This document shows, piece after piece, positions 15,307 through 39,446 of a stretch of DNA of 64,000 bases. The position numbers were made by a program, and so were the translations under genes. Each line of letters opens with the position of its first letter. Positions within the stretch are counted from its first letter, which is position 1. Below the pieces are notes generated by a model. It worked only from the letters and a program-made list of their open reading frames with translations, ran no database searches and was not told the DNA's origin. This DNA comes from Chloroflexus aggregans DSM 9485 (GTDB taxonomy: Bacteria; Chloroflexota; Chloroflexia; Chloroflexales; Chloroflexaceae), in contig NC_011831.1 in the NCBI RefSeq assembly GCF_000021945.1, positions 1,150,001-1,214,000 on the forward strand. The letters run 5' to 3'.

Positions 15307-15332
15307 TAGGGGCACGGCAGACCGTGCCCCTA
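15307..15332. repeat. GGGGCACGG palindromic element, possible terminator
   Basis: TAGGGGCACGG pairs with CCGTGCCCCTA around a short loop. It is the same core as the elements at 535, 29037, 29138 and 56510. It lies between the HtrA gene (starting leftward) and the DUF2085 gene's 3' end, both minus strand, so it can stop the DUF2085 transcript. The rest of 15248-15466 holds no credible gene. Confidence 0.65.
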
Positions 15333-28927: not shown

Positions 28928-29215
28928 CTCCGTAACACAATTAACGCAAAGGGCGGTAACGCAAAGGCGGTTAACGCAAAGGCGCAGAGGGCGCAAAGAC
29001 GCGGAGGGGGCTGACGCAAAAAGCGCCACCCGTAGGGGCACGGCACGCCGTTCCCCACGAAGGGCAAAGGACGGTAACGCAAAGGACGTAACGCAAAGGC
29101 GCAAAGGGCGCTGACGCACAGAGCGCCACCTGTAGGCGCACGGCGTGCCGTGCCCCACGAAGGGCAAAGGGCGGTAACGCAAAGGCGCAAAGGGCGCAAA
29201 GGCGCAAAGGGCGTA
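28928..29215. repeat. GCAAAGG repeat cluster with palindromes
   Basis: Short degenerate tandem copies of GTAACGCAAAGG and GCGCAAAGGGCG, broken by two palindromic cores (GGGGCACGGCACGCCG near 29037 and GCACGGCGTGCCGTGCCCC near 29138), each flanked by a CCACCYGTAGG...CGAAGGGCAAAGG context. The same material is found on the other strand at 56446-56605. Reading frames through it encode only Leu/Arg/Cys-rich repeats. It is non-coding and looks like a REP-type intergenic element. Confidence 0.85.
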
Positions 29216-29308: not shown

Positions 29309-30460
29309 TTAATACTTCGGCAAAGATGGATCCACTTCGTCGGCCCAGCGTAGAATACCGCCAACCAGATTCTTCACCTTGCGGAACCCCACGCTCTTGA
29401 GCAATTCGACTGCGCGGCCACTGCGCGCGCCACTGCGGCAGTAGACCACCATCTCACGCGCCGAGTCGAGTTCGTTGATCCGCTCGGGCAACTGATCAAT
29501 CGGGATCAGCTTATCGGTGCCGGGGATCGAGGCAATCGCCACCTCATAGGGGTTACGGACATCGAGCAAGAAGGGGCGGTCGGGCCGCTCCAGCCATTCC
29601 GCCAGTTCGCGGGGCGTGATCTCAAATTGGTTCGACAACGTAGGCTCCTCTACAAGACCACAAAACTGCTCATAGTCGATCAGCTCAGTGATCGTTGGAT
29701 GATCACCGCAGACCGGGCATGACGGGTTGCGGCGCAGCTTGAGCTCGCGGAAGCGCATTGCCAGCGCATCGTAGAGCAACAGCCGGCCAATCAACGGCTC
29801 GCCGATGCCTATGAGCAATTTTATCACTTCTGTGGCTTGAATAGTACCGATCACGCCGGGCAGCACCCCTAACACGCCACCCTCAGCGCAGCTCGGCACC
29901 AACCCCGGCGGCGGCGGTTCGGGGTAGAGGCAGCGGTAGCACGGCCCGCCATCCCGCGCCGAAAAGACCGTGACTTGCCCCTCAAAGCGGAAGATGCTGC
30001 CATAGACGTTTGGTTTGCCCAGTAGCACACAGGCATCGTTCGTCAGGTAACGGGTCGGAAAATTGTCGGTACCGTCTACGATTACGTCGTAGGGACGCAT
30101 CAACTCCAACGCATTCTCCGAAGTAATCCGTGTCTCATGTGTCGTAATCTCGATATACGGATTAAGGTCTTGCAGACGACGCTTGGCCGATTCGGTCTTC
30201 GCGATCCCGACGGTACCGGTGCCATGCACTATCTGACGCTGCAAATTTGAAGCATCAACCACGTCAAAATCGACCAGCCCAATATGACCAACACCTGCGG
30301 CGGCCAGATAGAGAGCTAACGGCGAACCAAGCCCACCGGTACCGATGAGCAGGACACTGCCTTGTTTGAGTCGGCGTTGACCGGCCATCCCAACTTCAGG
30401 CATTATCAGATGGCGCGAATATCGGGCAATTTCTTCGTTTGAAAGGGTTACCTCGCTCAT
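29309..30460 (-). CDS. moeZ: MoeZ-type E1 adenylyltransferase with rhodanese domain
   Basis: 383 aa. The N-terminal ThiF/MoeB-type adenylation domain (about 1-250) has IGTGGLGSP (ATP loop), DFDVVDASNLQRQ, and the zinc Cys pairs CYRC and CPVCG. A rhodanese domain (about 280-380) carries YCRSGARSGRA with the active Cys. Such proteins adenylate the C-terminal glycine of a ThiS/MoaD-like carrier and load sulfur onto it. The start overlaps the carrier gene's stop (ATGA), so E1 and carrier are translated together. In Mycobacterium MoeZ feeds the CysO cysteine pathway, which matches the neighbours here. Confidence 0.92.
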   Translation of the reverse strand: MSEVTLSNEEIARYSRHLIMPEVGMAGQRRLKQGSVLLIGTGGLGSPLALYLAAAGVGHIGLVDFDVVDASNLQRQIVHGTGTVGIAKTESAKRRLQDLNPYIEITTHETRITSENALELMRPYDVIVDGTDNFPTRYLTNDACVLLGKPNVYGSIFRFEGQVTVFSARDGGPCYRCLYPEPPPPGLVPSCAEGGVLGVLPGVIGTIQATEVIKLLIGIGEPLIGRLLLYDALAMRFRELKLRRNPSCPVCGDHPTITELIDYEQFCGLVEEPTLSNQFEITPRELAEWLERPDRPFLLDVRNPYEVAIASIPGTDKLIPIDQLPERINELDSAREMVVYCRSGARSGRAVELLKSVGFRKVKNLVGGILRWADEVDPSLPKY

Positions 30461-30741
30461 CGCCGTCCTCCACCGGCAATTGCCGGAATAATGCTCACCG
30501 TATCGCCATCACGCAACGGTGTTGCTTCACCATCGAGGTAGCGAATATCTTCATCGCCAACGTAGAGATTGACGAAACTGCGCAACCGACCCTGATCGTC
30601 GAGCAAATGGCGACCTAACGCCGGATACAGCTCGACAAGGCCGCGAATTAATCCACCAACATCACTCGCGTCGAGCGTAACACTGGCATTACCACCGGCA
30701 TATTGGCGCAGTGCTGTGGGAATTGTTACCGTTACTGCCAT
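30457..30741 (-). CDS. ThiS/MoaD/CysO-like sulfur carrier with masked di-glycine
   Basis: 94 aa beta-grasp protein. The VTVTIPTALRQYAGG start and the DGDTVSIIPAIAGG end fit MoaD/CysO. The chain does not end in Gly-Gly: GGGRR follows, so one glycine and two arginines (or the two Arg alone) must be removed before the E1 can activate it. A JAMM protease gene lies just upstream. AAAAGGAG precedes the ATG. Likely route: the JAMM protein trims the carrier, MoeZ thiocarboxylates it and CysM transfers the sulfur. Order in the operon: cysM, JAMM, carrier, moeZ. Confidence 0.9.
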   Translation of the reverse strand: MAVTVTIPTALRQYAGGNASVTLDASDVGGLIRGLVELYPALGRHLLDDQGRLRSFVNLYVGDEDIRYLDGEATPLRDGDTVSIIPAIAGGGRR

Positions 30742-30820
30742 CGTCTATGCTCCTTTTTTTCTTATTGCACACTTGTCAACTGCGGGATGCAAAGATATTA
30801 CCGATACCAAAACCACAGTC

Positions 30821-31297
30821 TCATTCGGCAGTGGCAACTTCCACCGGCTCAGCAATAAAGCGTGTACCTTCGTTCACGAGTAACCATGAGGTCAGCTCGG
30901 CGGCAACACCGTTACGCACAGATTGAATAACAAACGAAAAGCCTGAACCACTGATCGCCTGTGCGCCAATCCGATCGCGCTCGGAGGGAATGGCAGCCGC
31001 ATCCGGGTGTGAATGGTAACAACCAATGATTTCATAGCCCGCAGCACGCGCCGAGCGTTCAACGCGCAAATAATCGCGTGGGTCGAGGTAGAAGCGATCG
31101 CGCCGCGAAGTCGGATCATCGGTGATGGCCAGTTGTAGCTGCCCACTCCATCGATTTTCGAGCGTTACCACTTCTAACACCGTCTTGTGTTCACCGTTCA
31201 ACGTACCGACCAGCAATCCAACACATTCATCGGGATAGGTTGTTTCGGCATGAGCAACAATCGTTGCTAGCGCCTTCGCCGGAAGAATCAGTGCCAT
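30821..31297 (-). CDS. JAMM/MPN+ metalloprotease (Mec-like)
   Basis: 158 aa from the ATG at 31297 (GGGGG upstream); a longer frame only enters cysM in another phase. All metal and catalytic residues of the JAMM motif are present: Glu24, then His95-x-His97-Pro-x7-Ser105-x2-Asp108 in CYHSHPDAAAIPSERD. In Mycobacterium the homologous Mec releases cysteine from the CysO-cysteine adduct; other family members (QbsD, HcyD) trim carrier tails. The neighbouring carrier's GGGRR tail means this enzyme may do both jobs, which is inference. Confidence 0.92.
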   Translation of the reverse strand: MALILPAKALATIVAHAETTYPDECVGLLVGTLNGEHKTVLEVVTLENRWSGQLQLAITDDPTSRRDRFYLDPRDYLRVERSARAAGYEIIGCYHSHPDAAAIPSERDRIGAQAISGSGFSFVIQSVRNGVAAELTSWLLVNEGTRFIAEPVEVATAE

Positions 31298-31379
31298 AGC
31301 CCCCTTAGTTCGTTTACCGTGTTTGATATTGTTCACCACGCAACCTATCTTTCTGTGTACTCGGCAATGTCCATCACGA

Positions 31380-32309
31380 TCAAATGCCAGCCCCTTCAGC
31401 AAACCCCGGATCTTCCCAGAACCGTTCGCTGAGGTAACGATTAGCGCTATCGCACAGGATGGTGACCACCACCCCACTGCCGGCCTCCCGAGCCACTCGA
31501 GCCGCAGCCACTACATTCGCCGCTGCTGAAATCCCGACCAACAGACCGATTCGTCGCGCTAACCATCGCGCCATCGCAAACGCCTCTTCGCTCCGCACTT
31601 CAATCACTTCATCGGCCTGTTCGGGACGGTAAATTGCCGGCACAAATTTGGTTGAAGCCATGTGCTTCACACCTTCGAGAGCGTGGTACGGACTATCAGG
31701 CTGAACGGCAATCATGCGGATCGCCGGATTGTACTCACGCAATCGCCGGCTGGTACCCATAAAGGTACCACTTGTACCAAGGGCAGCCACAAAATGCGTA
31801 AGCCGACCATCAGTCTGTTGCCAGATTTCGGGGCCGGTGGTCTCGTAGTGGGCTTGGGGGTTGGCCGGATTGCTATACTGGTCAGGATAAAAGTAACGAT
31901 CGGGATATTCGGCGACCAAGGCACGAATAGCAGCGATTGCGGCATCCATACCTTCAGCCGGATCGGTCAAGATAAGTTCGGCGCCAAGCGCACGTAAGAT
32001 GCGGCGTCGTTCAAGGCTAGCGTTCGCCGGCATCGCCAGCGTCACTCCGTAGCCCAGTACCGCGCCGATGGTGGCATAGGCAATACCGGTATTACCGCTG
32101 GTAGCGTCGGCAATTCGCATTCCCGGTCGCAGCGCGCCGCGTTGCTCGCCATCACGGATCATCCAGAGCGCAGGACGATCCTTCACCGAACCGCCGAGAT
32201 TGTACCATTCGGCTTTTCCGTAAAGCTCAACGCCATCCGGTAAATCGAGAGCATGATGCAGCGGTAGAAGAGGGGTATGACCGATCAGATTGAGGAGTTC
32301 GGGTATCAT
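31380..32309 (-). CDS. cysM: Cysteine synthase, CysM type
   Basis: 309 aa PLP enzyme of fold type II. The PLP lysine is Lys43 in GGSVKDRPA. ATSGNTGIA (substrate loop) and ALGTSGTFMG (phosphate loop) follow. It makes cysteine from an activated serine. Its place at the head of a JAMM-carrier-MoeZ operon suggests it accepts thiocarboxylated carrier protein, as mycobacterial CysM does with O-phosphoserine, and not only free sulfide. Donor and acceptor cannot be proven from sequence. Confidence 0.9.
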   Translation of the reverse strand: MIPELLNLIGHTPLLPLHHALDLPDGVELYGKAEWYNLGGSVKDRPALWMIRDGEQRGALRPGMRIADATSGNTGIAYATIGAVLGYGVTLAMPANASLERRRILRALGAELILTDPAEGMDAAIAAIRALVAEYPDRYFYPDQYSNPANPQAHYETTGPEIWQQTDGRLTHFVAALGTSGTFMGTSRRLREYNPAIRMIAVQPDSPYHALEGVKHMASTKFVPAIYRPEQADEVIEVRSEEAFAMARWLARRIGLLVGISAAANVVAAARVAREAGSGVVVTILCDSANRYLSERFWEDPGFAEGAGI

Positions 32310-32343: not shown

Positions 32344-32730
32344 CTACGCTTGGCGCATCGCCATCTGGGCCGCCGCCTTGAGCACACGGTATGCTAATGT
32401 TGCACACTGTGGCCGCGCTTGCAGAATATCGGGGCCAACCACCTCAATGGCGGTCACCTCATCGAGTGCAGCCAGATCGGCCAGGGTCGCACCCTGTAAC
32501 CGTTCAATCAGGATTGATGCGGTGCCAAGACTCACGCTACAACCCTGCCCCGTAAATTGAAGGGCTGTTAAGCGACCATCGGACGCCACACGCAGATAGA
32601 CGGTCAACGTATCGCCACAATCAGGAACACCGCCACTGTACGTTAATGCATCGGCGAGTTCGCCATAGTAGCGGGGGCGACGGTAATGATCGAGCAAGCG
32701 TTCGATAGCATCTTGGTGCGAAGTAGTCAT
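32344..32730 (-). CDS. SufU/IscU-like scaffold, second copy
   Basis: 128 aa from the ATG at 32730. Cluster/zinc ligands: Cys38 and Asp40 (PDCGD), Cys64 (GQGCSVS), Cys109 (RPQCA), the same set as SufU. It is divergent from the SufU inside the suf operon and lies 34 bases before cysM. It may be a sulfur-relay or zinc protein dedicated to the cysteine pathway instead of a general scaffold. Function inferred from fold and context only. Confidence 0.85.
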   Translation of the reverse strand: MTTSHQDAIERLLDHYRRPRYYGELADALTYSGGVPDCGDTLTVYLRVASDGRLTALQFTGQGCSVSLGTASILIERLQGATLADLAALDEVTAIEVVGPDILQARPQCATLAYRVLKAAAQMAMRQA

Positions 32731-32753
32731 GGGCGTGCAACCTGGATATTGGT

Positions 32754-32855
32754 TAGCGAGACGGCGTCGCGTAGCGAGACGGTTGTTTACCCACAACGCG
32801 ATGCTATCCGGTCAACGGATAAACGAAGCATACCGCCTCTCGCTTATCCGTTGAC
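32754..32855 (-). terminator. Long-loop hairpin and short direct repeat after the rhodanese gene
   Basis: GTCAACGGATAA (32811-32822) and its exact complement (32844-32855) form a 12-bp stem with a 21-base loop, 20 bases after the rhodanese stop. Beside it TAGCGAGACGG is repeated at 32754 and 32772. The hairpin may end the rhodanese transcript or regulate the cysM operon that follows. Confidence 0.55.
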
Positions 32856-32874: not shown

Positions 32875-33726
32875 CTAGACATTCTTCTCAATTGGCAAGC
32901 CAACACTGTTGCCCCACTCGGTCCAGCTACCGTCATAGTTACGCACGTGCGGATAACCGAGCAGGTAGGTGAGAACAAACCAAGTGTGGCTGCTGCGCTC
33001 ACCGATACGGCAGTAAGCAATCACCTCTTTGTCTGGGGTTACGCCATGGGTAGCGTACAGCTCACGCAACTCTTCAACACTCTTGAAGGTGCTGTCTTCA
33101 TTCACAGCCCTCGCCCACGGGATATTGACCGCCGTCGGAATATGGCCACCGCGCAGCGTCCCCTCTTGTGGATAGTCAGGCATATGGGTCCGCTCACCGG
33201 TGTACTCTTGCGGACTACGTACATCGACAAGAACACCCTTGCGCTGGCGGACAAACTCGAGCACTTGATCGCGGAAAGCCCGGATCGTCGAATCATCACG
33301 CGGTGGCGCCACATACGAACCGGGAGGATACACCGGCACCTCGCGGGTGAGCGGGCGACCTTCCGCAATCCATTTCGCCCGACCGCCGTTCATAATCCGC
33401 ACGTCGCGATGACCGAACAATTTAAAGACCCAAAATGCGTAAGTCGCCCACCAATTGTGCTTATCGCCGTAAAGAACGACGGTAGTATCGTTGCTGATAC
33501 CTTTAGCCCGCATCAGTGCCGCAAATCGCTCGGAATCGAGATAGTCGCGGATCACCGGATCGTTCAAATCCTGCACCCAGTCAATTTTCACCGCACCGGG
33601 AATATGACCGGTATCGTACAGCAACAAGTCCTCATCGCTCTCAACGATGCGAACGTGAGGGTCGTTCAGGTGGTCGGCAACCCACTGGGTTTCGACCAGC
33701 GCTTCAGGATGGGCATAACCGCTCAT
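32875..33726 (-). CDS. Thiosulfate/mercaptopyruvate sulfurtransferase
   Basis: 283 aa from the ATG at 33726 (GGAGG upstream). Two rhodanese domains. The second has the active-site loop AYCRIGERS with catalytic Cys, and the first has the inactive counterpart [18 protein letters not shown] resembles thiosulfate-type actinobacterial and Chloroflexi enzymes more than the CGSGVTA loop of mercaptopyruvate enzymes. It would supply persulfide sulfur to the adjacent Suf and CysO-like systems. Confidence 0.93.
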
Positions 33727-33778
33727 TGCAACCTCCACTTGACCCACAAATCAGCTTCGCAGCCATTGTAGCGCGTTT

Positions 33779-34117
33779 TCAACAATTAGTCAAGTTCTTA
33801 CTCAGAAACTCAACAAATATTCGATCGTCGCGTATTTCACAACGATACGTAGCGACCGGAGCGAATGCCGGCAATGTACGAGGCTTACCGGTGCGCAGTT
33901 CAAAGAGCGAACCGTGCATTGGGCACTCGACACACAACTCTGTGGTATCAAGCTCACCTTCGCTCAACGAGGCCTCATCGTGGGAACAGAGATCGTCGAG
34001 GACATACACTTCACGCTCAGCAACGCGGAAAACGGCAATCCGGTGCCCATGAATAGTAAAGGCCCGCCCACTACCAACCGGTACGTCATCCAGCGAACAG
34101 ACCTCAACCAACGACAT
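33779..34117 (-). CDS. Rieske [2Fe-2S] ferredoxin-like protein
   Basis: 112 aa from the ATG at 34117 (GGAG upstream). Both cluster-binding boxes are intact: C-x-H in DLCSHDEASL and C-x2-H in CPMHGSLF, spaced as in NirD/biphenyl-dioxygenase-type ferredoxins. Soluble, no membrane segment. Stand-alone Rieske ferredoxins of this kind often lie next to suf operons in Gram-positive and Chloroflexi genomes. The electron partner is unknown. Confidence 0.93.
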   Translation of the reverse strand: MSLVEVCSLDDVPVGSGRAFTIHGHRIAVFRVAEREVYVLDDLCSHDEASLSEGELDTTELCVECPMHGSLFELRTGKPRTLPAFAPVATYRCEIRDDRIFVEFLSKNLTNC

Positions 34118-34190
34118 AGATTGCTCCTTCATCTGACGACTACACAAACCGACACGCGACCGTTTACCCACAATCACGCCATACATAACA

Positions 34191-34218
34191 CGAGCGCTCC
34201 CTTTGTTGGGAGCGCTCG
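34191..34218 (-). terminator. Terminator after sufB
   Basis: CGAGCGCTCCC (34191-34201) and GGGAGCGCTCG (34208-34218) pair perfectly across 6 bases, 26 bases after the sufB stop. It separates the suf operon from the Rieske gene. The T-tract is weak, so read-through is possible. Confidence 0.75.
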
Positions 34219-34243
34219 CCATTCCCGCATCCCGCACTGCGGT

Positions 34244-35659
34244 CTAACCCACCGAACCTTCCATCTCAAGCTGGATGAGACGGTTCAATTCAACCGCATA
34301 TTCCATCGGCAGCTCACGGGTGAACGGCTCCATAAAGCCGAGCACGATCATCGATAGCGCGTCCGACTCAGAGATACCGCGGCTCATCAGGTAGAAGAGC
34401 TGCTCAGCACCGATGCGGCCAACCGTTGCTTCGTGGGCCAACGTGCAGCGATCTTCCTCGATCTCGATATACGGGATCGTATCCGACGCCGAATTCTCAT
34501 CGAGGATCAGAGCATCGCAGTTGACATTGATCTTCGCGCCATAGGCACCCGGCGCCACCTTAGCTAAACCGCGGTAGGTTGTCTTACCACCATCCTTGCT
34601 CACCGACTTGTTGGTGATGCGCGAGGTCGTTTCGGGAGCGAGATGCACCATCTTGGCACCGGCATCTTGGTGCTGACCACGCCCGGCATACGCTACCGAG
34701 AGCACCTCACCACGCGCCTTGCGGCCCATCAGATATACCGACGGGTACTTCATGGTCAGCTTCGAGCCGATGTTGCCGTCCACCCACTCCATACTGGCCT
34801 CTTCGTAGGCCACCGCTCGCTTGGTAACGAGATTGAAGATGTTGTTGGCCCAATTCTGGATGGTGGTGTAACGGAACTTACCACCTTTCTTGACGATAAC
34901 TTCGACCACCGCCGAGTGCAGCGAGTTAGTGCTGTAGATCGGCGCCGTGCAACCCTCGATGTAGTGGGCCTCAGCCCCTTCATCGATAATGATCAAGGTG
35001 CGCTCAAACTGACCCATCCGCTCGGCGTTGATGCGGAAGTAAGCTTGCAGCGGAATATCAACCTTCACACCCTTCGGCACGTAGACAAACGAGCCGCCTG
35101 ACCAGACCGCGGTGTTGAGCGCAGCGTACTTGTTGTCAGCCGCCGGCACAATGGTACCGAAGTACTCCTTGAAGAACTCAGGGTACTCTTTCAGCGCGGT
35201 ATCGGTATCAAGGAAGATCACACCTTGCTTTGCCCACTCTTCGCGCAGCGAGTGGTAGACAACTTCCGACTCGTACTGAGCACCGACACCGGCAAGGAAT
35301 TTACGCTCAGCCTCAGGAATACCCAGCCGCTCGAAGGTATTCTTAATCTCCGGCGGCACCGCATCCCAGTCGGTCTGTGGGCGTTCGTTGGCCCGCACAA
35401 AGTAGTGGATGTCGTCGTAGTTCAACTCGGCCAGTTCGGGATTGGCCCACATCCCGACGAGCGGCGTTGGCTTCTTATTGAAAATCTCCAACGCGCGCAG
35501 CCGTCGCTTCAACATCCACTCCGGCTCACCCTTCATGCCGGAAAGTTCGCGCACAATGCGCTCATTCAGGCCCTTGGGTGCTTTATAGACATAGCGCTCT
35601 TCCTGTCGGAAGCCATAGCGCGAGTAGTCGAACTGCAAATTGACTGCTTCAGCGACCAC
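34244..35659 (-). CDS. sufB: Fe-S cluster assembly protein SufB
   Basis: 471 aa from a GTG at 35659 (GGAG upstream). Forms the SufBC2D scaffold, with SufB carrying the nascent cluster. Signatures: [16 protein letters not shown], the beta-helix core [20 protein letters not shown] (with the conserved Cys), [16 protein letters not shown] and the C-terminal [19 protein letters not shown]. Last gene of the suf operon here, whereas sufB is often first in other genomes. Confidence 0.97.
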
Positions 35660-35694: not shown

Positions 35695-36087
35695 TTATAT
35701 ATCTTCATCCTCCTGCCCCACCCCATACAGACCGGCTTTGAGCGCCTTCAACGAGAGCAACGCGCACTTGAGCCGGGTAGGGTTGTGGGCCAGCGGTATC
35801 CCAATGATCTCAAGCAAGTCATCCTTACTAAACTGCTTGGCCTCGGCGACCGGCTTGCCCTTAATCGCTTCGGTCAGCAGCGAAGCACTGGCCTGACTGA
35901 TCGCACAACCACGACCGGTAAAACGCACATCAGCAATGACGTCGTCGACAATCGCCAGTTCGAGCCGGATCTGGTCGCCACACAACGGATTACGCTCCTC
36001 GCGAATCACCGTCGGTGCCGGCAGATGGCCGTAGTTGCGTGGATGACGGGCATGTTCGAGGATCTGTTCACGATAGATGTCATCCAT
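35695..36087 (-). CDS. sufU: Fe-S assembly sulfur-acceptor SufU
   Basis: 130 aa. Zinc/sulfur ligands: Cys36 and Asp38 (PLCGD), Cys61 (GRGCAIS), Cys108 (LKCAL), plus the SufU-specific insertion KPVAEAKQFSKDDLLEII between the second and third Cys. In Bacillus SufU accepts persulfide from SufS. It sits 14 bases after sufS, so it is co-translated with its partner. Confidence 0.96.
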   Translation of the reverse strand: MDDIYREQILEHARHPRNYGHLPAPTVIREERNPLCGDQIRLELAIVDDVIADVRFTGRGCAISQASASLLTEAIKGKPVAEAKQFSKDDLLEIIGIPLAHNPTRLKCALLSLKALKAGLYGVGQEDEDI

Positions 36088-36101: not shown

Positions 36102-37340
36102 CTAGGCAAAGATGTGACGTGCCTTATGCAATGCCGCCACCAACCGATCGATCTCTTCGGGCAAATTGTAGAGATAGAAGCTAGCCCGGGTCGTTGCCGG
36201 TACGCCAAGCACCCGATGGAGTGGCTGCGTACAATGATGGCCGGCCCGCACCGCCACCCCTTCTTGATCGAGGATAGCGGCTACGTCGTGCGGATGCACT
36301 CCTTCGAGCGAGAAACTCACTGCACCACCCCGATCCGCCCCTGCCGGTGGCCCATAGACGGTCAGGCCCGGTACCTCGGCCAAACGTTCGAGGGCATATG
36401 CCGTCAATTCTTGCTCGTAGTGGTGGATCGCCGTCAAACCGACCTCTTGCAGGTAATCGGCTGCTTCACCGAGCGCAATTGCCTCACCAATCGCCGGCGT
36501 GCCCGCCTCAAACCGAGTCGGCGCGGCGGCAAACGTGCTGTGATCCAGTTCAACCAGGTCGATCATCGAGCCACCACCGAGAAACGGCGGCATCGCGTTG
36601 AGCAGCTCACGCCGCCCCCATAGCACGCCGCTTCCGGTCGGACCACACATCTTATGTCCACTAAAGGCAAGAAAATCGACCCCTAACGCCTGCACGTCTA
36701 CCGGCATATGTGGTACACTCTGCGCAGCATCGAGCAGTACCCGTGCGCCAACCGTGCGGGCCCGCGCCACAATCGGTTCAACCGGGTTAATCGTCCCGAA
36801 GACGTTCGATTGGTGCGTAAACGCAACCAACTTCACCCGTTCATCGAGCAAACGGTCGAGGTCATCGAGTACCAACCGCCCCTGACCGTCAAACGGCAAA
36901 TAGACCAACTCAGCACCGGTGCGTTGCGCCAACAACTGCCACGGCACGATATTGGAATGGTGTTCCATCATCGTGAGCAAGATGCGGTCACCGGCCCGAA
37001 CATTGGCACTCCCCCACGAATACGCAACCAGATTGATCGCCTCGGTGGTATTCCGCACAAAGATCACTTCGCGCTGACTTGGTGCATTGATCAGACGGGC
37101 CAGCTTACCACGTGCTCGCTCGTAGGCAAACGTCGCCTCCTCGCTCAGCCGGTAAATCCCACGATGCACGTTGGCATTATAGCGCCGGTAGTAATCTTCC
37201 AGCGTCTCGATAACGCGCTGTGGCTTTTGAGATGAAGCCGCACTATCGAGAAACGCCAGCGGCTTGCCATTCACCTGCTGATGCAAAATCGGAAACTCGC
37301 GCCGCAAAGCGATCACATCAAATTGAGACAAAGTCGCCAT
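36102..37340 (-). CDS. sufS: Cysteine desulfurase SufS
   Basis: 412 aa from the ATG at 37340. A group II PLP desulfurase that mobilises sulfur from cysteine. The PLP lysine is Lys230 (FSGHKMCGPTG), the MMEHHSN motif is upstream, and the catalytic Cys370 is in RAGHHCTQP on the short group II loop. It passes sulfur to SufU. Confidence 0.97.
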   Translation of the reverse strand: MATLSQFDVIALRREFPILHQQVNGKPLAFLDSAASSQKPQRVIETLEDYYRRYNANVHRGIYRLSEEATFAYERARGKLARLINAPSQREVIFVRNTTEAINLVAYSWGSANVRAGDRILLTMMEHHSNIVPWQLLAQRTGAELVYLPFDGQGRLVLDDLDRLLDERVKLVAFTHQSNVFGTINPVEPIVARARTVGARVLLDAAQSVPHMPVDVQALGVDFLAFSGHKMCGPTGSGVLWGRRELLNAMPPFLGGGSMIDLVELDHSTFAAAPTRFEAGTPAIGEAIALGEAADYLQEVGLTAIHHYEQELTAYALERLAEVPGLTVYGPPAGADRGGAVSFSLEGVHPHDVAAILDQEGVAVRAGHHCTQPLHRVLGVPATTRASFYLYNLPEEIDRLVAALHKARHIFA

Positions 37341-37440
37341 AGCTGTACCTTCATCTGACGCCGGTGTGATACCGGCGCCAGACCGGCCGTCGAAGTGCAT
37401 GAGTGATGCACTTCACGGTAAGCCACCTCAACGGCAGCAA

Positions 37441-38655
37441 TTAGATCTTTGCTGCGATTTCAGCGATCAACTCGGCACGCAACTCTTCAAGCGGGATCGT
37501 ATCGAGCGCCGGCTCAAAGAAGCCCATCACGATCATCCGTTGCGCTTCGGCACGCGGAATACCGCGAGTTTGCATATAGAAGAGCTGCTCTTGATCGATA
37601 TCGCCGCTGGTTGAAGCATGCCCGCCTTTCAGCACATCGTTCGTGCTAATCATCAGACCGGGAATACTATCGTTACGCGCCTTGGGGCTAAGGTGCAAGG
37701 CATGCTCTTCCAGCCGCGTACTGGTAGCCGCCGACTCGTGCTCGATCTTGATCATACCATCGAAGACACTGTAGGCCGTGTCGTTGACTACCGTCTTAAA
37801 TTGCATGAAACTCTCGCAATTATGACCGACGTGGCGCATCCACGGCGCGATCACCAAGTTCTGGCTATCGGCAGCAAACGTCGCACCGAGCCAATTGAGG
37901 CGTGAACCGTTACCAACCAGTGTCGCCTCAGCTTCGATATGCTGCACTTGACCACCAAGCTGGATCGACGTCCATTCTAGATTGGCATCGCGATTCAGGA
38001 TGGCGCGCTGACCGGCCAGATGGTAGACACCGCGCCCCCAATGTTGAATGCTGATGAAGCGGACACTTGCTCCATCGCCAACGAAGATCTCGGTGATTGG
38101 ACCGGCAAAGGAACCGGCACGCAGATCGGGCGAGGTAAACTCCTCGATCAGCGTAACGCTCGCCTGTGGTTCAACGATGACTAAGGTGCGTGGAAAAATC
38201 GCCACACCATCGGTACCGAGCGTATAGATCAGGCGGAGCGGCACCTCGATAGCGACACCCTTCGGCACGTACAGGAACGCACCGTCTTGCCAGAGGGCAG
38301 CCCGCAGCGCGCTAAACTTATGCTTCAACGGCTCAACTGCCGTATCCATATATTTCTGGATCAGTGCTTCGTGCGAGCGTAATGCCGCCGCCAGCGTCGT
38401 AAAGACGACACCTTGCGCAGCCAACGCCGGATCCCACTGGATCGCCGTCGCATGCGCACTATCTGAGGGAGCAATCGTCGTCGGATCAAGCTTGCTAAGA
38501 TCGGTCCGCCGCCACTCGGGCGGATTCATCTGGGCAAAGGCAGCCCATGCTTCCCGCCGACGATCGGTGAGCCATGCCGGCTCGCCGGCAGCTTGCGAAC
38601 GCGCCACGACGAACTCGGCGCTGATCTCGTTCAAAGTAGGCAACGTCGTTGTCAT
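37441..38655 (-). CDS. sufD: Fe-S cluster assembly protein SufD
   Basis: 404 aa from the ATG at 38655 (GGGAG 6 bases upstream; an in-frame ATG two codons earlier overlaps the ribosome-binding site). Beta-helix protein paralogous to SufB: YVPKGVAIEVPLRLIYTL, LVIVEPQASVTLIEEF, the C-terminal GIPRAEAQRMIVMGFFEP. The conserved His in the core, LHLSPKARNDSIPGL, contacts the cluster site. A gap of about 100 bases separates it from sufS. Confidence 0.96.
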   Translation of the reverse strand: MTTTLPTLNEISAEFVVARSQAAGEPAWLTDRRREAWAAFAQMNPPEWRRTDLSKLDPTTIAPSDSAHATAIQWDPALAAQGVVFTTLAAALRSHEALIQKYMDTAVEPLKHKFSALRAALWQDGAFLYVPKGVAIEVPLRLIYTLGTDGVAIFPRTLVIVEPQASVTLIEEFTSPDLRAGSFAGPITEIFVGDGASVRFISIQHWGRGVYHLAGQRAILNRDANLEWTSIQLGGQVQHIEAEATLVGNGSRLNWLGATFAADSQNLVIAPWMRHVGHNCESFMQFKTVVNDTAYSVFDGMIKIEHESAATSTRLEEHALHLSPKARNDSIPGLMISTNDVLKGGHASTSGDIDQEQLFYMQTRGIPRAEAQRMIVMGFFEPALDTIPLEELRAELIAEIAAKI

Positions 38656-38666
38656 GGGCATCTCCC

Positions 38667-39446
38667 TTAGGCGGCACCGGCCAGCTCCTCACGGAGCCAA
38701 TCGTAACCCTTCTCCTCCAATTCAAGGGCCAGTTCAGGACCACCCTCGCGCACAATGCGACCGTCCATCATTACCGACACGACATTGGGTTTGATATAGT
38801 TGAGCAGGCGCTGATAGTGGGTAATGACCAACACACCCATGTGTGGGCCGGCCATCCGATTCACGCCATTGGCCACAATCCGCAGCGCATCAATATCTAA
38901 CCCAGAGTCGGTTTCGTCGAGAACGGCCATCGACGGCTTGAGCAACATCATCTGTAAAATCTCAAGGCGCTTCTTTTCACCGCCGCTAAAACCGTCATTG
39001 AGATAGCGACGGGCAAAGCTCTCGTCCATCTCTAACAAGTTCAAGCCTTCACGGAGCAACTTGCGAAACTCAGCCGCTGGAATTGCCGTCTCCTTCGGAT
39101 CTTTGCCCTCTTCTGCCCGGTGTGCATTAATCGCCGAACGCAAAAAGTTTGCCACCGTAACGCCCGGCACTGCGACCGGATACTGGAAAGCGAGAAACAC
39201 GCCCAGCCGGCTACGCTCATCAGGTTCAAGCTCCAGCAGATTATGGCCTTTGTACCAAATCTCGCCACTCGTTACCTCATACGCAGGGTGGCCGGCGATA
39301 ATGTACGACAGCGTGCTCTTGCCACTGCCGTTCGGCCCCATAATTGCGTGGATCGTACCCTGACGTACCGTCAGATTCACACCGCGCAGAATCTCCTTGT
39401 CACCGATCCGCGCATAGAGATCCTTGATGATCAAATCGTTGCTCAT
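38667..39446 (-). CDS. sufC: Fe-S assembly ATPase SufC
   Basis: 259 aa ABC-type ATPase. Walker [10 protein letters not shown], signature FSGGEKKR, Walker [13 protein letters not shown] and the H-loop VITHYQR are all intact. LDETDSGLD is the SufC-specific variant. GAGG precedes the ATG. First structural gene after the regulator. Confidence 0.97.

Follow-up and report, generated by a model that had tools for sequence, protein, structure and literature searches.

Gene content and the tailed carrier

The locus described here lies in a window of 64,000 nucleotides (the whole stretch of DNA analysed; NC_011831.1, GCF_000021945.1, positions 1,150,001–1,214,000) from the single-contig genome (4.68 Mb) of Chloroflexus aggregans DSM 9485. 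It encodes a cysM-like cysteine synthase (31380..32309), a JAMM/Prok-JAB metalloprotease (30821..31297), a CysO-like sulfur carrier (30457..30741) and an E1-like adenylyltransferase with a C-terminal rhodanese domain of the MoeZ/MoeBR type (29309..30460), all on the minus strand. An earlier note on this DNA had proposed that these four genes form one operon at 29309–32309, and our analysis bore this out. We consider it fairly probable that the operon represents a CysO-type protein-thiocarboxylate cysteine module, in which the carrier would be made as a short precursor and the same JAMM protein would both trim its tail and release cysteine.

The carrier (94 amino acids) belongs to the Pfam ThiS family and matched Mycobacterium tuberculosis CysO (3dwg_C) with an E-value of 9.4e-21. 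Its translation ends in ...IIPAIAGGGRR, followed by the stop codon. In a whole-length alignment with CysO, which ends in PAVAGG, the carrier domain stops at Gly91 (PAIAGG), leaving GRR as a tail. Translation and alignment together thereby confirmed the GGGRR end, instead of GG, that the earlier note had read. The tail codons (GGA CGG CGA, followed by the stop TGA; 30457..30468, minus strand) overlap the E1 start with their last bases, the carrier and E1 genes sharing four bases (ATGA). A three-residue tail in the same frame was present in all eight genus members (GRR, GQP, GRQ, GRS in two and GRL in three), and this common frame and length ruled out a sequencing or frame artefact as its source. 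In the named scan, the carrier most similar to that of the window belonged to Chloroflexus islandicus (97% identity). Residues after Gly-Gly together with an adjoining JAMM gene are the features of a capped carrier (as in QbsE/QbsD and PtmS2/PtmS1); both are found here, and removal of the tail by JAMM is predicted. At the sequence level, this supports the proposal of a carrier that should need trimming within a module forming cysteine from a protein thiocarboxylate. Among the module proteins, the best NCBIfam matches were SAMP1 for the carrier (50.8 bits, cut-off 60) and desampylase, both under their cut-offs.

The JAMM protein (158 amino acids; Pfam Prok-JAB, 85.5 bits) has the metal-site motif (E, HxH, S-x2-D) and the fold of JAMM/MPN+ metalloproteases. 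All five active-site residues (E24, H95, H97, S105 and D108) are present and were 98%–100% conserved in 173 aligned survey sequences. Its predicted structure had a mean predicted local distance difference test score (pLDDT) of 90.1 and matched Pyrococcus furiosus JAMM1 with bound SAMP2, a ubiquitin-like protein (Z 20.0, root-mean-square deviation 1.5 over 129 residues). It is the only JAMM over the family cut-off in the genome (second match 24.4 bits, cut-off 25) and is therefore the one that would have to perform both trimming and release, consistent with the suggestion of the earlier note that one protein may do both.

The E1 protein (383 amino acids; Pfam ThiF, 279.5 bits; Rhodanese, 57.8 bits) is likewise the only full E1 with ThiF over the cut-off (second match 23.5 bits, cut-off 28.1). 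It has both CXXC motifs (CYRC at 174 and CPVC at 248) and a rhodanese loop reading CRSGAR. The genome encodes three ThiS-family carriers, the other two ending in SGG and AGG with nothing after, and all three carriers presumably depend on the single E1. The CysM protein (309 amino acids; TIGR01138, 342.4 bits, under the cut-off of 394.2) has Tyr145 at the position, mapped through alignment, that serves as a sequence marker discriminating O-phosphoserine from O-acetylserine; the CysK of this genome has Phe there. Tyr occurs in O-phosphoserine-using and Phe in O-acetylserine-using cysteine synthases (PMC12800425). Tyr was found at this position in 93 of 98 CysM proteins from cysM-JAMM-carrier loci. 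The CysM proteins of a Mariprofundus-like group had Phe in 30 of 30 cases, and the Tyr marker is accordingly not universal among tailed carriers.

Carrier tails and JAMM genes among relatives

Of the 61 genomes closest to the window, 45 had a carrier match, in some of them as paralogs only. The tail survey comprised 310 carriers at 297 loci, with the locus of the window itself and duplicate retrievals excluded. Carriers were counted as having a JAMM when a JAMM match lay on their strand anywhere in the stretch retrieved (about 0.9–13 kb), and as masked when they were tailed after GG or fused in frame to another protein. By these definitions, 156 of the 179 carriers with a JAMM were masked (121 tailed, 35 fused): 40 of 43 in Chloroflexales, 65 of 65 at named-scan loci (Acidobacteriota for the most part, judging by title), 32 of 36 in other Chloroflexota and 19 of 35 in Actinomycetota. 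In Chloroflexales, excluding the window, 40 of 43 operon carriers were tailed versus one of 17 GG-bearing paralogs (16 plain, one tailed; six further paralogs were without GG). A JAMM over the cut-off was encoded somewhere in 29 of 30 Mariprofundus-like genomes and in 15 of 16 genomes from the named-scan loci, giving 43 of 45 for both searches combined (one genome was common to both).

For the tree and association analyses, duplicates were removed, some Chloroflexales loci falling in two sets, which left 292 distinct carriers (310 plus that of the window, minus six without GG and 13 duplicates). With relatives counted as independent, 189 of 214 carriers with a JAMM or cysM in the stretch were masked versus 29 of the 78 remaining carriers (Fisher p 2e-17). 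The masking state changed at least 32 times on the carrier tree.

Loci labelled 'CYSM CAR' without a JAMM were rejected as cysM loci; by blastp, they were nearer to another PALP protein, and four that were checked encoded threonine synthase. Carriers paired with such threonine-synthase-type genes without a JAMM (L203, L306, L098, L324 and others) were used as a control, and 30 of 37 ended in plain GG. In six genomes of one family (L118–L122 and L129), we also observed a second CysO-like carrier without a Gly-Gly end (e.g., VPEGDL, VPSGDL, VPEGSM).

Several observations weigh against a trimming and cysteine-releasing role of the JAMM protein. Plain GG ends occurred in 23 of the 179 JAMM-linked carriers, 16 of them in Actinomycetota, showing that tails are not required where a JAMM is present. 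Conversely, carriers without a JAMM in the stretch included 63 tails and nine fusions, besides 53 plain ends and six without GG; 40 of these 63 tailed carriers had a cysM in the stretch, and 29 belonged to the Mariprofundus-like group. No JAMM match was found in G064, a genome from the named-scan loci whose carrier has the tail QR, and the only match in the Mariprofundus-like G771 (tail K) was below the cut-off. The stretches around the Chloroflexales paralogs were only about 0.9–1.5 kb long, so that a nearby JAMM is barely excluded save in the window's own genome. When the association was reduced to supported independent pairs differing in linkage, seven were available; on average, the difference in masking ran in the same direction in 2.2 pairs (median sign-test p 0.5, not significant). 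The co-variation of tail and JAMM sought by the earlier note thus appears as a strong raw association without phylogenetically independent support. The metabolic context adds two further points. MoeZR alone, of the two M. tuberculosis E1s tested, charged CysO, for which a CysO-cysteine adduct was described (PMC3227635). By the criterion of that paper, the window E1 is MoeBR-like, having both CXXC motifs, whereas in MoeZR the first is replaced by NYRD and the second is mostly missing. Furthermore, CysE and CysK (456 bits) are encoded elsewhere in the genome; the operon is therefore probably a second cysteine route of this organism, and it may be a minor one.

The presence of a JAMM alone is an insufficient cause of tails, considering that plain GG ends 16 of the 35 JAMM-linked carriers of Actinomycetota, the group in which Mec occurs. 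A JAMM permits tails; causation is not what these data show.

Tail length and proposed translational coupling

At JAMM-linked loci where the E1 start overlapped or abutted the carrier stop, the tail was always two or three residues long (22 of 22); at those without such an arrangement, it ranged from 0 to 39 residues (n = 61). E1 starts at the surveyed loci were assigned by a scripted rule instead of being taken from annotation. In C. aggregans, the sequence GGAGG lies within the Gly codons at 30467..30471 (minus strand), 6 bases 5' of the E1 ATG, as a candidate ribosome-binding site of the E1 gene, and this spacing was the same in all eight genus members. GGAGG in the Gly codons and the next codon was found in 13 of 15 Chloroflexales operon carriers ending in ATGA, 8 of 28 others and 6 of 17 paralogs. 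The Gly codons may therefore double as the E1 ribosome-binding site. A plain GG end with the same overlap would put this site against the start codon, which would account for a tail of this length. Judged in this way, tail length looks like a by-product of translational coupling and not like a regulatory mask. As for the masked carrier of the earlier note, the tail after GG is present, but it need not be a purposeful mask, given the uniform length of two or three residues at overlapping E1 starts. The opposite extreme, a tail serving purely as a coupling spacer with no need for trimming, was rejected as a general explanation, since tails were also present at 58 of the 61 loci where the E1 start neither overlaps nor abuts.

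The tail could still act in regulation by hiding the cysteine carrier from the shared E1 until JAMM acts, in which case the level or activity of JAMM would set the sulfur flow to cysteine. The presence of one E1 and three carriers, of which just the JAMM-adjacent one is masked, is compatible with such control, as is the distribution of ends among the 82 unfused carriers in cysM-JAMM-carrier loci, where plain GG was rarer (3) than tails of one (16), two (21) or three (19) residues. We nevertheless regard this explanation as unlikely. The tail sequence looks unconstrained (83 different kinds in the 121 JAMM-linked tailed carriers), its length at overlapping loci fits coupling, three relatives are tail-less (L019, L145 and L148), and no sign of control over JAMM was seen.

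Fused carriers, loss of CysM and single-cysteine tails

Forty-four surveyed carriers ran on for more than 60 residues: 41 into E1, two into a cysM-like enzyme (L218 and L314) and one into other sequence (L334). A JAMM was present in the stretch for 35 of them (32 E1, two cysM-like and one other), and the fused or unfused state changed at least 15 times on the carrier tree. A carrier fused ahead of its E1 has no free Gly-Gly end and must therefore be cut after GG to carry sulfur. A dedicated literature search for carrier-E1 fusions returned none, by title or abstract start, among the matches listed. At L334, the in-frame extension past GG appeared hydrophobic by eye, and the locus has both a JAMM and a cysM.

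No close CysM was found in five genomes (G034, G618, G008, G045 and G049; completeness 100%, 94%, 99%, 100% and 100%, respectively), in which the best match to the window CysM had 42%–43% identity. This is the level of the second copy (42%–44%) in G003, G042 and G030, which also have a match of 76%–91%. All five CysM-less genomes keep the JAMM HxH...SxxD motif, the E1 and a tailed carrier (SYV, RK, R, SC and K). At L028, L143 and L235, a SufU-like gene lies immediately before the JAMM gene, as though cysM had been excised. Since these five genomes retain JAMM, the tailed carrier and E1, cysteine release is probably not the only reason for keeping JAMM. Read most simply, it was retained to trim the carrier, with a takeover of the CysM role by CysK as an alternative. 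In a separate observation, the cysM match in G573 (C46:56389-57274) was split into two same-strand pieces, maybe a decaying copy; two relatives in its genus are without a close cysM.

The persistence of JAMM, carrier and E1 in these five genomes would also be expected if the carrier were mainly a protein modifier or served other thiolations, with JAMM as a deconjugating isopeptidase of the SAMP/HvJAMM1 kind and cysteine as a side product or a lineage-specific use. The SAMP1 and desampylase matches, both under cut-off, and the structural closeness of the JAMM model to P. furiosus JAMM1 with SAMP2 point in the same direction. However, cysM is found in most such operons and the O-phosphoserine Tyr is kept, and we consider this explanation quite improbable. 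It is more improbable still that another protease trims the tail and that JAMM, like Mec, is confined to cysteine release: the enzyme cutting M. tuberculosis MoaX after Gly-Gly was indeed reported as unidentified (PMC4326299), but genomes lacking a close CysM still have JAMM together with a tailed carrier, and QbsD and PtmS1 provide precedents.

Among single-residue tails, Cys accounted for 15 of 68, of which 10 came from one related group. Outside that group, the proportion was 5 of 41 (binomial p 0.011 versus 2 of 61 codons), an enrichment that is suggestive only. A carrier encoded with a terminal Gly-Gly-Cys has the same covalent end as the CysO-cysteine adduct, so that a single reaction can serve for both trimming and release. 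In Cys-tailed species, the precursor as translated would be identical to the pathway intermediate.

Proposed mechanism

These results suggest a scheme of four steps. JAMM would first cleave the carrier after Gly91, removing GRR. The exposed Gly-Gly would then be adenylated by E1 and converted to a thiocarboxylate with sulfur from the E1 rhodanese domain. CysM would couple this thiocarboxylate to aminoacrylate derived from O-phosphoserine, yielding carrier-Gly-Gly-Cys, from which the same JAMM, cutting the same type of bond, would release free cysteine and the carrier. The first and last steps would thus be one reaction, differing in the group after the second Gly. The tail would have no sequence of its own to keep, and a trimming enzyme would render the arrangement of GGAGG and overlapping start harmless. 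On the evidence of the gene sequences, the trimming idea is probably right. More tentatively, with rather more doubt than confidence, we propose that, across bacterial phyla, one JAMM reaction on Gly-Gly-X has left the carrier gene free to vary at its 3' end, allowing a ribosome-binding site for the next gene, drift of the tail (including to a single Cys) and fusions to E1 or CysM, and that JAMM was kept after the loss of CysM. If this were true, it would have been kept because an untrimmed carrier cannot work.

Comparison with known systems

Removal of residues after GG by a JAMM protein is a feature of HcyS/HcyD, whose partner pathway is that of homocysteine. The JAMM protein QbsD acts likewise on QbsE, with a siderophore as the partner pathway (cited in PMC6006322). 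In Streptomyces platensis, deletion of the JAMM gene ended thioacid production, and the authors inferred the use of capped carriers (PMC6006322). This PtmS1/PtmS2/PtmS3 system has capped carriers (MV and C), one JAMM, one E1 and two open-ended carriers, and its JAMM is needed; PtmS3 is a published example of a GG-C carrier end. Its sulfur goes to a natural product, and the parts of the paper covered do not treat cysteine release. The gene set was also known: operon type 4c of Iyer, Burroughs and Aravind 2006 (PMC1779556) consists of ThiS/MoaD, E1-rhodanese, JAB and cysteine synthase and lists Chloroflexus aurantiacus, that is, the same four gene kinds, all present in the window neighbourhood, in the same genus. 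In the parts covered, that paper does not mention short carrier tails, and it proposed JAB processing for fused ThiS/MoaD. Neither the gene set nor the capped-carrier idea is thus novel.

The homologous carrier, JAMM and cysM link the operon to the Mec/CysO/CysM/MoeZR system of M. tuberculosis, from which it differs in gene order and in the GRR tail, CysO ending in plain GG. The plain end is not a defining difference, because Actinomycetota operons also have tails. The JAMM motif is HSHP in the window, whereas the 35 Actinomycetota JAMMs have HSHT in 25 cases and HTHT in four. The tailed JAMM-carrier-cysM operons in Actinomycetota (MA, HR, C and others) also show that the division drawn in the earlier note, by which each known system uses JAMM for cysteine release or for trimming but not both, was too sharp. 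Fused carriers have parallels in the MoaD-MoaE fusions cut by DRJAMM (PMC8832034) and in MoaX (PMC4326299), which have to be cut after Gly-Gly to work, as would those surveyed here. The DRJAMM substrate and MoaX serve molybdenum cofactor synthesis, whereas the fusions in our survey join E1 or a cysM-like enzyme. No paper on the Chloroflexus carrier tail was found by title or abstract start among the matches listed, which is weak evidence of absence, as most subscription papers lay outside the search. The operon and the capped carriers belong to kinds already described; new here are the range of tails and fusions, the lack of a close CysM in some genomes and the proposed explanation of tail length by coupling.

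Genomic neighbourhood

The four genes extend a SUF operon on the same strand. In the direction of transcription, the run comprises sufC (38667..39446), sufD (37441..38661), a sufS-like cysteine desulfurase gene (36102..37400), canonical sufU (35695..36087), sufB (34244..35659; TIGR01980, 703.9 bits), a gene for a Rieske-type [2Fe-2S] protein (33779..34237), one for a two-domain rhodanese (rhodanese/TST, mercaptopyruvate sulfurtransferase-like; 32875..33747) and a SufU-like gene, followed by cysM, JAMM, carrier and E1-rhodanese; a possible regulator also lies upstream. The genes sufC, sufD, sufS and canonical sufU are open reading frames (ORFs) named by reading the sequence, and the remaining genes were named by family search. 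The SufU-like gene (Pfam NifU_N) spans 32344..32730 from its ATG or 32344..32796 from a TTG. According to the ORF tables, intergenic gaps across the run are at most 82 bases if it begins at the TTG, and the gap before it is 144 bases from the ATG. The earlier note had placed a divergent SufU-like gene just upstream of cysM; it does lie there, 34 bases away, but on the same strand, and 'divergent' holds for its sequence only. When the protein is aligned with the canonical SufU from the same operon, three Cys coincide, and such a gene was seen again in the carrier-operon neighbourhood of several relatives. The sulfur relay that the earlier note suggested for it is a putative function. A second arrangement with a SUF module was observed in other Chloroflexota (L335–L337), where a pair of sufS and SufU-like genes is followed by E1, carrier, cysM and JAMM.

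Beyond the E1 gene, a dispersed repeat of about 100 bases containing the palindrome GGGCACGG...CCGTGCCC occurs at 28961–29213, with further palindrome copies at 536–555 and 15310–15329. The palindrome was found at four places in the window (8 strand matches; 0.02 matches expected). A similar translated repeat adjoins cysK at L163.

Implications

The proposed module would join the two known roles of JAMM proteins, cysteine release and the unmasking of a carrier, in one small system that could be rebuilt in vitro. The carrier-E1 fusions and the CysM-less genomes offer ready-made substrates and controls. More broadly, these fusions and genomes may inform the question of how mutual dependence arose between ubiquitin-like precursors and their proteases.

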